Part shown: positions 9,904 through 24,134 of the stretch, piece by piece
How the letters are laid out: each line of letters begins with the position of its first letter
How positions within the stretch are numbered: the stretch's first letter is position 1
Source: Haloarchaeobius iranensis
Lineage (GTDB): Archaea; Halobacteriota; Halobacteria; Halobacteriales; Natrialbaceae
Reading direction: 5' to 3'
DNA: 64,000 bases
Assembly: GCF_900103505.1 (NCBI RefSeq)
Contig: NZ_FNIA01000002.1
Location: 124,001 to 188,000, forward strand
Notes under the pieces: model-generated
Databases searched by the model: none
The model's input: only the letters and a program-made list of their open reading frames with translations
Told to the model about the DNA's origin: nothing
Translations under genes and position numbers: made by a program

Positions 9904-12609
9904 TCAGTCCAGCCCGGGAATCGGCCGTTTCCCGCGCGTGACCGTCGACCGGTTGGTCGTCGGGTCCTTCTCGACGTGGACCAGCGAGTCCGCCGCGCCG
10001 ACGAGCTCCTCGTCGTGACTCACCAGGATGATCTGCTCGACGCCGTACTCCGTTCGCATCGTCTCGACGAGCGTGAGCAGCTGCGACACGTGACCCGAGT
10101 CGAGGAAGACGGTAGGCTCGTCGAGGATGAGCGGCGGCATCGGTGCCGCCCCCTCGACACCCTCGGAGAGCAGCCGGTAGATGGCACAGCGAAGGCTGAG
10201 GTTGAACAGCGCGCGCTCGCCGCCCGAGAGCTGTTCGGGGTCGAGGGTCTCGCCGTCCTTCTGGTACACCGTCAGCTCGTAGTCGCCCGAGAGCTCGATA
10301 TGCGAGTACGAGTCGTTCTGGTAGACGAGGTCGAACGTCTCGTTGAGCATCCGTTCGAGCGTCTCGACGTTCCGCCGGCGGAGCTCCGCGCGCAGGTCGC
10401 TGTACATCTCCTGGAGGTCCTGGGCCTCGTCGTACAGCGATTCGAGTGCATCGACGCGTTTCGCGAGTGCGTCGCGCTTGGTCCGGAGCGACTCCAGTTC
10501 CTCGATCTCGTTGCGGACGCCGCCGATGCGGTCCCGGAGGTCCGCCTCCTCCGATTCGAGCGTCTCGAGCGCCTCGGTCGCCTCCTCGAGGTACTCCTCG
10601 GCGCGCTGTTTCTCGCTGCGGGCGGTCTCGACCCGCTCCTCGTCGACCGCCGACTCGAGCTCCCGTTTCCGCTCGCGTTTCTCCGCGAGGCGCTCCCGAC
10701 GCTCCTCGTTGAGTTCGGCCTTGCTCGCGCGCTCGTCACGCAGTCGCTCGGCCTCAGCCTCGACCGAGTCGACCTCGCCGAACAGCTCCGAGAGCCGGTC
10801 CAGCGTCTCGATGGTGGCCTTCACGTCGGCGCGCTCGCCGTTGGCCTCGCCGAGGTCGCTCCGCAGGTCGTCCGCCGCCTCGCGGGTCGAATCGGCCTCC
10901 TCGCGCCGCTCCGCGGCCTCTGACTCGAGCTCGTCGGCCTCCTCGCGCAGGTCGGCGGCACGCTCGCGCTTCTCCGAGACGTTCTCGGCCTTCTGCTCGC
11001 GGAGCTGCGCCATGTTGTCGCGGTTCTCGCGCAGGCTCTCGACCTCGCGCTCGGCGTCGCGGAGGCTCTCGGCGCGGTCGATGCGTTCGTCGAGCGCCTC
11101 GATGTCCGCCTCGAGCGCCTCGAGTTCGGCTTCCTTCGACGCCAACTCCTCGCGGTCGTCGGCCAGCGAGTCGACGTGGGGCGAGCCGTCGACGGGCTGG
11201 CCGCACTCCGGGCACTTGCCCTCCTCGAGCAGCGCCTCGGCCTCCTCGATGCGGTTCCGGAGCGTCTGTACCCCGGTTCGCAGGTCGCTGGCCTCGTCCC
11301 GCAGTTCCTCGCGCTCGTCGCGGCGGGCCGCGAGGTGCGACTCCGCATCGCCGAACTCAACGGGTGCGTCGTCGAACGCCTCGCGGTGCGCCTCGATGTC
11401 GTCGTCGAAGCCGTCGAGCTTCTCGCGCAGGTCGTCGAGGTCGGCGTCGGCCTCGTCGGCCTCGGCTTCGAGGTCGGCCGCCTCCTCGCGCCGCCGCTCG
11501 GCCTCGTTCTCCAGCTCGGCCGCGCGCTCGGCCAGCCGGTCGGCCTCGTCGGATTTCGTGCTGATCTCGACCGAGAGCTCGTTGATCCGCTCCTGCAGCG
11601 CTTCGGCTTCGCTCTCGAGTTCGCCGAGCCGGTGCTCGACGAGTCCGGCCGTCTCGTCCGGCGCGAGTCCCGTATCGTCGGACAGGTCGCTCGCGTCGGG
11701 CAGGTCGACCGCCTCGAGGAGGTCGTCGCGCTCGGCGCGCAGGTCGTCGAGGTCGTCGGTCCGGTCGGCGATGCGGGCCTTCAGCTCCTCCCGCTCGCGC
11801 TCGGTCGCCGCGATGGCGTCCTGCAGTTCGCTCACGTCGGACTCGACCGACGCCAGCTCCTCGCGCTTTTCCTCGTGGTCGTCGAGCACGGCCCGGGCCT
11901 CGTCGCGTGTCGACTCGGCCTCCGCCACGTTGTCCTCCAGTCGCTCGATCTCCGCGCCGGTCTCGTTCAGTTCGCTCTGGAGCTCGTTGAGCTGGTCGTG
12001 CAGGCCCTTCGCCTCCTTCGCCGCAACCTGCTCGTCGAGGCTCTCCTTCCGGCCGCGGGCGTTGTCGAGCACGTCGTTCACGCCCAGCCGGGCCTCGCTG
12101 GCGCGCTCCCGGTACTCCTCCAGCTTGCCGAGCTGCAGGAGGTCGTCGATGATGTCCTGACGGGTGCTCGGGCTGGCGTGGATGAGCTTGTTCACCTCGC
12201 CCTGGCGGACGTACGCGCAGTTGACGAACGCGTCGGCGTCCATCCGGAGCAGGTTCGTGATGGCCGCGTCGACCGAGCTCGGCCCCTCCCAGGATGCGTC
12301 GCCGCCCTCCAGCAGGCAGTCGTGCGACACGCGGTCGCCGTAGTCCTTCAGGCTGCGCTCGAGGCGGTAGTCGACGCCGTCGTGGCGGAACCACAGCTCG
12401 ACCTCGCACTCCTCCTCGCCGGTCCGGATGACGTCCTCCCGGGTCCCCGGAATCGCGGCCGAGCCGTACAGCGCGAAGAAGCACCCCTCCAGCAGGCTCG
12501 ACTTCCCGCTGCCGTTGACGCCGTGGACGACGGTGACCCCGCGGTCGAGCCGCAGGTCGGCGTCGCCGTAGCACTTGAAGTTCGAGAGGCGGACGCGGTC
12601 GACCCTCAC
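9904..12609 (-). CDS. rad50: DNA double-strand break repair ATPase Rad50
   Basis: A 901-residue SMC-like ATPase. The N-terminal lobe has Walker A GVNGSGKSS (about 30-38). Two long acidic coiled coils flank a zinc hook, CPECGQPVDG, with Cys466 and Cys469. The C-terminal lobe has the signature LSGGERALF (about 793) and Walker B LILDEPTVFLD (about 827). With Mre11 it tethers and processes DNA ends. Its ATG overlaps the mre11 stop by 4 nt, so the two are translationally coupled, with mre11 first. Heptads such as EELRDEASDLR are very acidic, a halophilic trait. Confidence 0.97.
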   Translation of the reverse strand: MRVDRVRLSNFKCYGDADLRLDRGVTVVHGVNGSGKSSLLEGCFFALYGSAAIPGTREDVIRTGEEECEVELWFRHDGVDYRLERSLKDYGDRVSHDCLLEGGDASWEGPSSVDAAITNLLRMDADAFVNCAYVRQGEVNKLIHASPSTRQDIIDDLLQLGKLEEYRERASEARLGVNDVLDNARGRKESLDEQVAAKEAKGLHDQLNELQSELNETGAEIERLEDNVAEAESTRDEARAVLDDHEEKREELASVESDVSELQDAIAATEREREELKARIADRTDDLDDLRAERDDLLEAVDLPDASDLSDDTGLAPDETAGLVEHRLGELESEAEALQERINELSVEISTKSDEADRLAERAAELENEAERRREEAADLEAEADEADADLDDLREKLDGFDDDIEAHREAFDDAPVEFGDAESHLAARRDEREELRDEASDLRTGVQTLRNRIEEAEALLEEGKCPECGQPVDGSPHVDSLADDREELASKEAELEALEADIEALDERIDRAESLRDAEREVESLRENRDNMAQLREQKAENVSEKRERAADLREEADELESEAAERREEADSTREAADDLRSDLGEANGERADVKATIETLDRLSELFGEVDSVEAEAERLRDERASKAELNEERRERLAEKRERKRELESAVDEERVETARSEKQRAEEYLEEATEALETLESEEADLRDRIGGVRNEIEELESLRTKRDALAKRVDALESLYDEAQDLQEMYSDLRAELRRRNVETLERMLNETFDLVYQNDSYSHIELSGDYELTVYQKDGETLDPEQLSGGERALFNLSLRCAIYRLLSEGVEGAAPMPPLILDEPTVFLDSGHVSQLLTLVETMRTEYGVEQIILVSHDEELVGAADSLVHVEKDPTTNRSTVTRGKRPIPGLD

Positions 12610-20202: not shown

Positions 20203-20781
20203 TCACCGAGACGACTGTTCGTAGCCTTCTGCTGCTCGTCTGAGCCGTCGGACCTCCGCGAGCACCGCCTGCCACTGCTCGACGGTGCCCGGAAGCTCGT
20301 CGTCGCCGTCGTCGAAGGCCGCCCGCTGGTCGAGCACGAGGTTCTGCACCGACCGCGGGTCCTCGACGTTCCAGAACGCGAGCTCGGTCCCCAGTCCGCC
20401 GGCCGTGTCCACCGAGACGGTACCGTGACCGAACAGCCTGCCGAAGAACCCCTGTTCGTAGGAGCTGTTCTGGACGCTCTCGAAGCCGACCGCGAGGACG
20501 TCCCGCGAGAGCACCCCCTGTTTGCGGTAACACCGCCGACTCGTCACGACGAACTCGACGTTGCGGATCCAGACGTACGCGAGCACCGGTGGGACGACGC
20601 CGAGCAGAGCCAACGGCCACACCGGCACTGGGAACGCGTCACCAGCGGTCAGCTGGAGCCCGACCGGGACGACGGCGACGACCAGGCCGACGAACACCGC
20701 CGGGATGACGCTCTGGACGCGTGGCGAGGCCGCCCAGAGCACCTCCTCGCCGTCCTCGAGCGTGAGCCAGTCCCGGCTCAT
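20203..20781 (-). CDS. Membrane PH-domain protein (YdbS/YdbT-like), second of a pair
   Basis: A 192-residue protein. It begins with LTLEDGEEVLWAASPRVQS, has two membrane helices (VIPAVFVGLVVAVVPVGLQL and PLALLGVVPPVLAYVWI), then the bacterial PH-like domain (VEFVVTSRRCYRKQGVLSRD followed by FESVQNSSYEQGFFGRLFGH). It overlaps the upstream PH gene by 4 nt and is similar to it, so the pair arose by duplication and probably forms a membrane complex. The function of this family is not established. Confidence 0.83.
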   Translation of the reverse strand: MSRDWLTLEDGEEVLWAASPRVQSVIPAVFVGLVVAVVPVGLQLTAGDAFPVPVWPLALLGVVPPVLAYVWIRNVEFVVTSRRCYRKQGVLSRDVLAVGFESVQNSSYEQGFFGRLFGHGTVSVDTAGGLGTELAFWNVEDPRSVQNLVLDQRAAFDDGDDELPGTVEQWQAVLAEVRRLRRAAEGYEQSSR

Positions 20782-21422
20782 CGTCCGCGCGGGCCGGAAC
20801 CGTCGTCGTCCCTGGCGCTGGGCGTCCCGTCCGGCGGCTGACCGGCGCCGTCAGCCGACCGGCCCTCGCGAGCCTCGATGCGCTCGAAGGTCTCGCGCAT
20901 CGTCCGCAGCTCGGCGAGTATCTCGTCGAGCACGGCCTCCTTCGGGGGTGCGTCCTCGCCACGACGGTCGCCCCCGCGGCGGTTCTCCTTGATGAGCCGG
21001 TTGATGCGCTCCTGGACGGCCTTCGGGTCGGCGACGGACTGGAACTGCATCTCGACGCCGGAGCCGCCCGCGGTCGAGATGTCGACGTTACCGTAGCCGA
21101 AGTAGTTCCCGACGACGCCCTGGCTGAACGAGATGTTCTGGACCTTGTCGAAGTCGACGCGCTGGACATCCCGGGAGAACACGCCCGACTTCGTGTACAG
21201 GCCGTCGGTCGTGACGACGTAGTCGGTGTTCTCGCGCCAGAGGTACGCGCCGACGATGATGAAGATACCCACCAGCAGGATGACGAGCGGCACGCCGAAG
21301 ACGAGCGCTGGGACGATACTCATCGGGTGGGGGTTGCCCGACCAGACGATCTCCTCGTCGTCGTCGAGGCTCAGCCAGTCGAACTCGGAGCCCCCCGTGT
21401 CGGGTGAATCGGTGGCTGTCAT
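20778..21422 (-). CDS. Membrane PH-domain protein (YdbS-like), first of a pair
   Basis: A 214-residue paralogue of the next gene: DEEIVWSGNPHPMSIVPALV, two hydrophobic segments around residues 37-63, then DYVVTTDGLYTKSGVFSRD and DFDKVQNISFSQGVVGNYFG. The C-terminal tail is helical (VLDEILAELRTMRETFERIE) and ends disordered. An AAATA element on the plus strand at 21448-21452 gives TATTT on the minus strand, about 28 nt upstream, supporting the ATG. It heads a two-gene operon. Confidence 0.83.
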   Translation of the reverse strand: MTATDSPDTGGSEFDWLSLDDDEEIVWSGNPHPMSIVPALVFGVPLVILLVGIFIIVGAYLWRENTDYVVTTDGLYTKSGVFSRDVQRVDFDKVQNISFSQGVVGNYFGYGNVDISTAGGSGVEMQFQSVADPKAVQERINRLIKENRRGGDRRGEDAPPKEAVLDEILAELRTMRETFERIEAREGRSADGAGQPPDGTPSARDDDGSGPRGR

Positions 21423-21630: not shown

Positions 21631-22323
21631 ATGGCTGTGGTCGAACGACACGCCTGTGAAGGCTGTGACCGCGAGTTCTCCCTCGACAACCTCCACGCGG
21701 TCACGATGCCGGGTGGGTCACGAGCCGTCTGCTGCCCCGAATGCCGGGAGTACGCAGAGACGGTCACCGACAACGGGTCGGACATCGACCAGCGACGACG
21801 CGAGTGCGACGGCTGCACCGAGGAGTACCTCGTCTCCGAACTCGAGGAGGTAATCCTCTCGGACGGAACGAGCGTCCTCTGCTGTGACTCCTGTGCCGAA
21901 CACGCGCCGTCGAACGACGGCGAGACGGACCCCCGCAGGCAGGAGGAGTCCGAAGCCGAGACGGCGGCCGAGCTCGAGTCCAAGGAGCCCTCGAAGGCGA
22001 GCCGCCAGCGTAACCTCTGCCAGCAGTGCAACGACTGGTACTCCATCGAACTCTACCGCGTCGTGACGGTCGACGACCGTACCGAGAAGTTCTGCCCGGA
22101 CTGTATGGAACAGGCCCGCGACGACGGAATCATCAAGGACGTCCGGATGCGCCGTGCCGAAGCCTACGAGGTGCTCGGTGCGGCCGGCTTCGAGGACGCC
22201 GACGACCTCAGGGACGCCTACATCGCGCAGGTCAAGGCAGTCCACCCCGACCGGGCCGACGGCTCGCGTGCGGAGTTCAAACGCGTGCAGGCCGCCTACG
22301 ACCGGCTGCAGGACGAGTTCTAG
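21631..22323 (+). CDS. J-domain protein with three zinc-knuckle units
   Basis: A 230-residue protein. Three successive four-Cys zinc sites are visible (Cys9/12/35/38, 59/62/85/88 and 130/133/155/158), each a treble-clef-like CxxC...CxxC. A Glu-rich linker separates the second and third. Residues 177-226 form a J-domain with the HPD triad at 205-207 (VKAVHPDRAD), the part that stimulates Hsp70/DnaK. There is no G/F region, so it is not a canonical DnaJ. ATG 21631 is about 27 nt after AATATA at 21601; an upstream TTG was rejected. Its TAG stop shares the CTAG at 22320-22323 with the convergent TIR gene. Confidence 0.85.
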   Translation: MAVVERHACEGCDREFSLDNLHAVTMPGGSRAVCCPECREYAETVTDNGSDIDQRRRECDGCTEEYLVSELEEVILSDGTSVLCCDSCAEHAPSNDGETDPRRQEESEAETAAELESKEPSKASRQRNLCQQCNDWYSIELYRVVTVDDRTEKFCPDCMEQARDDGIIKDVRMRRAEAYEVLGAAGFEDADDLRDAYIAQVKAVHPDRADGSRAEFKRVQAAYDRLQDEF

Positions 22324-22928
22324 ACCGGGTCCTCCCGACGCACGTAGCCGAGGGTCGCCGGGTTGAAGAAGTACTGCGCGTCGCACTCCTCGCAGCCCGC
22401 CACCAGCGCCTGGTTGTGTTCGAACATCTGCCAGAGCTTCTTCTGGATCTCCTCGACGTCGAGGGTGACCGTCGTCCCGCAGTTCTCGAAGTTGCAGGGG
22501 AAACGGACGAACCAGTTCGGCGTCGACAGCGTGCCCAGCGGTGCGAGCTCCGAACGGAGCCGGGCGAGGAGGTTGAACACCGTCACCTCCATCTCGTCGG
22601 GGTCGAGCGAGACCTCCTCGTGTCGCTGGAGATAGCCCCCGAGCTCGACGCCGTCGGCGGACAGCGGGAGGATGGGGATTCCCTTCGCGACCGCGTAGCC
22701 GATCTCCTGGTTCACCCAGCGGTTCGTCGCGCTCGCCTCGGTGAGAACGACGACGAGCAGGTCGCTGTTGGTGAGTCTGCCCTCGAGGTCCTGCCGGTTC
22801 CGGCCGGGTTCGATCTGCTCGAGCGCGATGTGGATGTCGAGGTGCAGGTTCTGGACCGTCGAGAACAGCTCCTGGACGAGGTCGAGGTCCGACGGTGCGT
22901 GGGAGACGAACACCTGCTCTTCGGCCAT
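22320..22928 (-). CDS. TIR-domain protein with C-terminal zinc ribbon
   Basis: A 202-residue protein. Residues 5-100 resemble a TIR domain: QVFVSHAPSDLDLVQELF (beta A/helix A), SDLLVVVLTEASATNRWVNQ, then EIGYAVAKGIPILPLSADG. Glu75 lies where TIR NADases carry their catalytic Glu. Residues 135-195 hold a zinc site, PCNFENCG (Cys145, Cys150) and GCEECDAQ (Cys179, Cys182). TIR proteins in prokaryotes often cleave NAD or make cyclic-ADP-ribose signals in antiphage defence. Whether this one does so is inference. The ATG is about 27 nt after TTTAGT on the minus strand. The upstream HNH gene ends 31 nt before it. Confidence 0.8.
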   Translation of the reverse strand: MAEEQVFVSHAPSDLDLVQELFSTVQNLHLDIHIALEQIEPGRNRQDLEGRLTNSDLLVVVLTEASATNRWVNQEIGYAVAKGIPILPLSADGVELGGYLQRHEEVSLDPDEMEVTVFNLLARLRSELAPLGTLSTPNWFVRFPCNFENCGTTVTLDVEEIQKKLWQMFEHNQALVAGCEECDAQYFFNPATLGYVRREDPV

Positions 22929-22950
22929 GCCGGAACCTCGCCGGTCGGCT

Positions 22951-22958
22951 ACTAAATG
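22951..22958 (-). promoter_or_regulatory. TATA-like box of the TIR gene
   Basis: CATTTAGT on the minus strand is centred 27 nt upstream of the TIR ATG, just before the HNH stop codon. The TIR gene may therefore have its own promoter besides read-through. Confidence 0.5.
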
Positions 22959-22959
22959 C

Positions 22960-23415
22960 TTACCCACTGTCGTGGACGCGTTCGTGGCAGATGGGACAGA
23001 GGGCGACCACGTTGTGGACGTGTCGGTGGCCGCTCGCTGCGGTGGAGACGACGGCGTGGAGGTGCAACACGTCACCGACGACGAGCGCCTCCCGGACCCC
23101 ACAGCCCCGGCAGCGGGCGTCGTCGCGCTCGACCACGGCCGCACGGTCCACCGGGAGACCGTCGCAGTCGGCCCGGGAGCCACCGGTTGTCCGGTCGGCC
23201 GTACAGCCCTCACAGAGGCTGATGGCGTTCCGCTCGCCGTCACCGCCCGTGACGACGGCTCGCTCGCGGGCCCCATCGTCCCCGCAGTTCCGGCAGGTTC
23301 CCGGCGACAGTGCCGGTTCGTGTCTGCGTCCGATACCGCCCGCTTCGGCGACCGCTCGGGCCGCCGAGTCGACGTTCAGCGACGCGAGCTTCGTTACTCG
23401 TTCTCTCGCACCCAT
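22960..23415 (-). CDS. HNH endonuclease-like protein with N-terminal zinc ribbon
   Basis: A 151-residue protein. Residues 40-72 carry one four-Cys zinc site (TCRNCGDDG and LCEGCTAD). The C-terminal 60 residues match an HNH nuclease core: VVERDDARCRGCGV (first Cys pair), VLHLHAVV (catalytic His region), HVHNVVALC and PICHERVH (Asn plus second zinc pair). HNH domains cut DNA in restriction, homing and defence systems. An AT-rich box (TAATTAAG, near 23439-23446) on the minus strand supports the ATG. It lies directly upstream of the TIR gene on the same strand. Confidence 0.8.
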   Translation of the reverse strand: MGARERVTKLASLNVDSAARAVAEAGGIGRRHEPALSPGTCRNCGDDGARERAVVTGGDGERNAISLCEGCTADRTTGGSRADCDGLPVDRAAVVERDDARCRGCGVREALVVGDVLHLHAVVSTAASGHRHVHNVVALCPICHERVHDSG

Positions 23416-23489: not shown

Positions 23490-24134
23490 TCAGAGCGGCG
23501 CGACGAGGTCGTCGAGCGCGGCTCGTGGGTCGTCGGCCTTCGCGACACCCGAAGCGAGCAGGACGCCGGTCGCGCCGAGGTCGGACGCCGCCACGAGGTC
23601 CTCGCCGGTCGAGATGCCCGCACCGCAGAACACGTCGACGGCGGGGTCGACCGCCGCCGCGGCCGCGACGGCGTCCTCGACGATGTCCGGGTCGGCCTGG
23701 CTGACGGGTGTCCCGGTGCCGATGAGCTCCGGCGGCTCTACCGCGACGGCGTCGGGACCCAGCGCCGCGGCCGCGCCGACCTGCGCCGGGTTGTTGGCAC
23801 AGACGACCGTCTCCAGCCCGGCGCGCTCGGCCGCGCGGACGGAGCCGTCGAGGTCGGCGAGCTTCACGCGGTACTCGGAGTGATTGACGAGGGTGCCCGC
23901 CGCGCCTGCGTCCGCGACGGTCTCGGCGAGCGTGTGGCCGGTCTGGCTCCCGGGCTCGACGGGGTCGACGTGCTGGCTCCAGGTCTCGACGCCGGTCTCC
24001 GAGACCGCTTCGAGGTGGGCCGCCTGCGGTGCGACGGCGATACGGACGCCGCTGTCGTCGGCCGCGTTCGCCGCCGCGGTCGCGACCGCCACGGGGTCAC
24101 ACGGGTACGCCTTCAGGTTGACGAGGACGAACAT
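23490..24134 (-). CDS. tpiA: Triosephosphate isomerase
   Basis: A 214-residue TIM-barrel enzyme, the short archaeal form, interconverting dihydroxyacetone phosphate and glyceraldehyde 3-phosphate. The catalytic Lys is in [20 protein letters not shown] holds the His/Ser loop, [16 protein letters not shown] carries the catalytic Glu loop, and [11 protein letters not shown] is the phosphate-binding loop. The chosen ATG (before FVLVNLK) is preceded by CTTTTG on the minus strand at about 26 nt. It is separate from fba-fbp but serves the same pathway. Confidence 0.94.

Follow-up and report, generated by a model that had tools for sequence, protein, structure and literature searches.

A conserved convergent pair of TIR-zinc and J-domain genes in haloarchaea

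Prokaryotic TIR enzymes have been studied mostly in sporadic antiphage systems. In the window, the 64,000-nucleotide stretch of Haloarchaeobius iranensis DNA analysed here, a short TIR gene lies between a J-domain gene and an HNH gene, and a preliminary description had proposed that the three form a system, possibly a defence system, in which a J-domain sensor is linked to TIR and HNH effectors. Do these genes belong together, and in which function? An ORF check confirmed the three reading frames, their coordinates and their strands (Table 1). As described, the TIR and HNH genes lie on the same strand, the TIR start being separated from the HNH stop by 31 nt, and the J gene converges on the TIR gene and shares its stop in a 4-nt overlap. 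As the two genes converge, TIR and J do not form an operon. The third-position GC content is 0.86 for J, 0.94 for TIR and 0.80 for HNH. The cysteines of the three four-Cys modules of the J protein and of the four-Cys zinc site of the TIR protein were also confirmed; because all of them are invariant in relatives, their pattern is more than chance.

Table 1. Features of the TIR/J locus, in window coordinates.
Feature	Coordinates	Strand	Remarks
J gene (230 aa)	21631..22323	+	three C2-C2 zinc modules, then C-terminal J-domain; relatives in 51/293 genomes
J protein, zinc module 1 (C9, C12, C35, C38)	21655..21744	+	invariant 24/24
J protein, zinc module 2 (C59, C62, C85, C88)	21805..21894	+	invariant 24/24
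J protein, zinc module 3 (C130, C133, C155, C158)	22018..22104	+	invariant 24/24
J-domain, HPD residues 205-207 (22243-22251)	22162..22317	+	PF00226 in 24/24 members
Overlap of convergent J/TIR stop codons, CTAG	22320..22323	.	4 nt in common
TIR-zinc gene (202 aa)	22320..22928	-	one match in each of 60/293 genomes
C-terminal zinc domain of TIR protein, residues 139-199	22332..22514	-	C145-x4-C150-x28-C179-x2-C182, four Cys invariant
TIR domain, residues 4-128	22545..22919	-	W71-x3-E75; E75 codon 22704-22706; AlphaFold2, fold matches
HNH gene (151 aa)	22960..23415	-	extra four-Cys site; lineage-specific neighbour
tpiA (context)	23490..24134	-	PF00121; constant neighbour on TIR side

In Pfam, the TIR protein matched TIR_2 (PF13676) with E=2.6e-12 (47.7 bits for a cut-off of 28), and ThsB_TIR was also above its cut-off. 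The AlphaFold2 model, built on an alignment of 41 sequences, has a mean pLDDT of 83; SARM1 TIR was the best match in the structure search (E 1.1e-6), and the SPARTA TIR aligned with Z 13.8 and an rmsd of 3.0 over 143 residues. The TIR assignment thus survives structure prediction, where its failure had been named as an outcome that would count against it. In alignments of 32 and 41 TIR sequences, with relatives 45-93% identical to the window's protein (93% for Haloarchaeobius sp. FL176, the closest named relative in the search), W71, E75, C145, C150, C179 and C182 are all invariant. We take the W-V-N-Q-E of the TIR protein to be the W-x3-E motif of SARM1. Glu75, which had been placed at the NADase position, indeed ends the stretch W71-V-N-Q-E75 and is present in 41/41 sequences; it is the counterpart of a glutamate described as critical for NADase activity in a survey of TIR domains (PMC7075850). 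The fold and the W-x3-E glutamate are shared with the TIR NADases (SARM1, AbTIR, SPARTA TIR-APAZ and Thoeris ThsB), whereas the window's protein is short, carries a C-terminal zinc domain and is encoded by a resident single-copy gene. No Argonaute, ARM/SAM or other known TIR partner was found next to the TIR gene. The TIR region matches the models of Thoeris type III ThcB4 (NF058526) and PADLOC ThsB with E values of 3e-10 and 3.3e-7; however, the 39.5 bits obtained with the ThcB4 model are below its 220-bit cut-off. Ten nearby window proteins and the annotated Natrinema segment yielded no ThsA-type effector. As a side observation, the TIR gene of Haloterrigena sp. H1 (L112:6001-6599) seems frameshifted, appearing as two pieces in tblastn.

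A different enzymatic assignment would make the TIR-like domain an enzyme of the DNPH1/NDT kind, a nucleotide N-glycosidase or deoxyribosyltransferase with damaged or modified nucleotides as its substrates, and not a NADase. The protein contains E-I-G-Y-A, which we liken to a deoxyribosyltransferase motif; it matches PF05014 in Pfam (E=0.0014) and the 2'-deoxyribosyltransferase 7m5h in the profile search (E=1.6e-4), its setting is resident and metabolic, and the structural Z values of 12.3 (7o62) and 11.6 (DNPH1) are near the 12-13.8 of the TIR entries, the deoxyribosyltransferases and DNPH1 ranking only 1.5-2 Z units below SPARTA. However, TIR_2 (2.6e-12) far outscores PF05014, and the protein has the F-V-S-H-A-x2-D start together with W-x3-E, which we count as TIR-like. 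We consider this assignment very unlikely.

The zinc tail, modelled alone (pLDDT 84), has a helix and, after it, a zinc-ribbon-like unit of five strands and one short helix; structure searches with this model gave no clear solved match (Foldseek E at least 0.29; VIA Z at most 3.4), an outcome that speaks against no particular fold. In a pattern scan of genomes, Hsp33 genes of Rhodobacteraceae aligned with the tail. As in the C-terminal zinc redox switch of Hsp33 (PF01430), a four-Cys site is followed by Y-x-F; however, the first pair of the window's tail is C-x4-C, where Hsp33 has C-x-C, so that the C-x-C...C-x2-C site is absent, and the TIR protein has no Hsp33 core domain. hhalign gave 96.9% for the tail against twelve Rhodobacteraceae Hsp33 and three PDB Hsp33 tails, the twelve having been selected by a common motif. 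Because of this selection, the comparison was redone with five Hsp33 tails chosen otherwise, a set that leaves out L140, where no C-x-C site was seen: the score was 29.5 and the probability 60%, compared with a score of at most 20.3 for shuffles in which the cysteines were fixed (n=60). PF01430 did not match the whole TIR protein in Pfam, matched 2 of 30 tail members (best E=0.17) and was present in 0/8 genomes; the PDB profile search and most Pfam scans gave no Hsp33 hit for the tail. The unmatched PF01430 and the absent C-x-C site speak against membership of the tail in Hsp33. With the hhalign probability fallen to 60%, the likeness to the redox switch of Hsp33 is suggestive, though weak, and may serve as a lead only. 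Separately, we observed that Hsp33 tails of Rhodobacteraceae and other alphaproteobacteria (L118-L134, L136-L139) end in YxFDPATLGFEA, resembling the end of the TIR-zinc tail.

The J protein matched DnaJ (PF00226) in Pfam above cut-off (E=3.4e-8), and its twelve paired cysteines and HPD are invariant in 24/24 sequences. It has in common with DnaJ and other J-domain proteins a J-domain with HPD, but places it at the C-terminus, behind three C2-C2 modules; in the PDB profile search with the J protein, the match was confined to the J-domain region. DnaK was found in 10/10 genomes tested.

How far are the three genes kept together? The TIR protein is present in 32/61 genomes of a first set. In a sample of the order (293 genomes), TIR was found in 60, with one match each, and the J zinc modules in 51; both occur in 49 genomes, TIR only in 11 and J only in 2, counts that, like the Fisher test on them, ignore kinship. 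In the window's family the TIR gene is single-copy and present in 53/63 genomes, and the 7 genomes with TIR outside this family are the same 7 that have J. The two genes are adjacent in 44 of the 49 genomes holding both; the five exceptions fall into two genera (3 and 2 genomes), and in the second of these the J match is partial. J adjoins TIR in 23/31 loci of one collection and in 33/50 haloarchaeal loci of another, drawn from named genomes, a count that leaves out L101, where only a J fragment is present. Over 31 of these 33 loci, L103 (broken J) and L112 (frameshifted TIR) being left out, the two stops are a median of 1 nt apart and overlap in 10. TIR and J are thus a conserved convergent pair in haloarchaea, and the scattering that would have spoken against the preliminary description is absent for these two. 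The HNH gene fared otherwise. Its protein scored 21.1 bits against PF01844, slightly below the cut-off of 21.4, and the gene is found at the same place in 4/6 genomes of the genus and in one Halorubellus, other HNH matches being weak and elsewhere; on this distribution we rejected HNH as a third member, and the proposed three-gene system is not borne out.

The pair itself is not strict. As 11/60 TIR genomes lack J, J is not required for TIR. TIR proteins from J-less loci (e.g., L040, L042, L044, L055, L056 and L058) keep an intact active site, and an obligate antitoxin role of J towards TIR is unlikely.

The surroundings bear on why the two genes are neighbours. tpiA adjoins TIR in 29/31 loci of the first collection and 47/50 haloarchaeal loci of the second. 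In 42 full loci, most of them from Natrialbaceae, conservation extends over a long segment, which as annotated in a Natrinema record comprises histidinol-phosphate transaminase, adenylate kinase, CDP-alcohol phosphatidyltransferase, a TIGR00270 protein, tpiA, a hypothetical protein, TIR, J and DUF3054. In Natrialbaceae, a small protein different from HNH is often encoded between tpiA and TIR (L073:5489-5941, L078:5499-5909); two examples gave no match in Pfam. The window's flanks encode, by Pfam, a carboxyl transferase, two bPH_2 proteins, tpiA, YlbF, a diphthamide synthesis protein and His_biosynth; the two bPH_2 proteins are neighbouring and membrane-type (20203-21422, minus strand). Because the whole segment is conserved in Natrialbaceae, the TIR/J adjacency there may be inertia. 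TIR and J could then be unrelated resident genes at a stable site by tpiA, with J and DnaK serving other clients. The genomes with only one of the two genes, 11 with TIR and 2 with J, fit this historical explanation, and so do the distance correlations: the residual TIR-J correlation given tpiA is 0.63, reached by 0/1000 label permutations, but a neighbouring membrane-protein gene gives 0.65 with TIR (other neighbours about 0.3-0.5). Because this control matches the TIR-J value, a specific co-evolution of TIR and J is not supported. However, the trio of tpiA, TIR and J has stayed together in Haloarchaeobius, Halorubellus, Halostella and a related metagenome genome, although most other neighbours there differ from those of Natrialbaceae. 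J is moreover almost never found without TIR, both J-only genomes being of one genus, and in one of these two genomes (G252) TIR is gone and J still stands beside tpiA at the emptied site (L144:3546-5427), the congener G170 having both. On balance, a purely historical linkage is possible, though less likely than not.

Another reading is an antiviral system: J would sense infection, and TIR, alone or together with a nuclease, would kill or stall the cell, HNH taking part in some species. TIR effectors are known, by the names and structures in the model libraries, from Thoeris, retron and short-Argonaute systems, and in the window HNH lies 31 nt upstream of TIR. Against this stand the sporadic occurrence of HNH, the housekeeping setting and the family-wide, single-copy TIR gene. 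Among ten nearby window proteins there was no defence family except for Rad50-like cross-matches; the large protein at 9904-12609 looks, from its sequence, like Rad50 and adjoins an Mre11-like protein. In viral contigs, 30 stretches fitted a pattern and none was confirmed as a relative. Among plasmid records, TIR occurs in 2 and J in 1, and one 0.99-Mb, chromosome-like Natrinema record carries both. Defence islands are marked by sporadic presence and by surrounding defence or mobile genes, and the TIR locus has neither; the defence-island setting that had been suggested is not borne out, given the housekeeping neighbours, the nearly family-wide single-copy TIR gene, the lack of a confirmed relative in viral contigs and the single plasmid record with the pair. 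We regard an antiviral system as unlikely. The fixed place among housekeeping genes speaks for a built-in response, to stress or in immunity, rather than for a typical cluster of antivirus genes. The TIR/J pair may have a core immune role, and core immune genes do exist. Of the proposed sensor-effector arrangement, the linkage and co-occurrence of TIR and J stand, and HNH and the defence setting fall away; coupling of a J-domain sensor to a TIR effector is possible, with linkage and co-occurrence as its basis.

The observed features on which a function can be built are the TIR fold, the active-site glutamate, the zinc cysteines, the HPD and the conserved linkage and co-occurrence. Most likely, the TIR-zinc protein is a resident enzyme that cleaves NAD+ or nucleotides and is controlled through chaperones or zinc, the biochemical steps being inferred. 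Our tentative reading of the whole, to which we give a probability of about 0.4, is a resident TIR N-glycosidase governed by its zinc domain and, through recruited DnaK, by the J protein. Once switched on, the enzyme would most likely cleave NAD+, and the zinc domain would serve in regulation or assembly. The J protein, whose J-domain looks functional, would bind TIR itself or whatever triggers it and bring DnaK to TIR, setting its active or inactive state; the trigger might be proteotoxic, oxidative or viral stress. A bolder version, in which an Hsp33-like zinc-thiol tail and J/DnaK keep TIR inactive until oxidation or chaperone overload allows it to destroy or convert NAD+, is distinctly unlikely; if true, it would link protein damage to NAD+ depletion or to a nucleotide signal. 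On the preferred reading, a near-constant, family-wide TIR gene accompanied by an Hsp70 co-chaperone would suggest that TIR enzymes have an endogenous role in archaea, and the pair would connect protein quality control with NAD+ metabolism in a way that can be tested. Among open-licence papers, we found none joining the TIR domain with Hsp33, with Natrialba, or with the J-domain and archaea.

On the chaperone side, extra copies of the zinc module are apparent in the J proteins of two genomes of the genus Haloarchaeobius and of Halorubellus (L035:6819-7586, L036:6911-7678, L050:6694-7647). The window's genome also encodes a second Hsp70-like protein in a 568-aa frame (G000:C52:42651-43475), which is found in a further genome (G001) as well.
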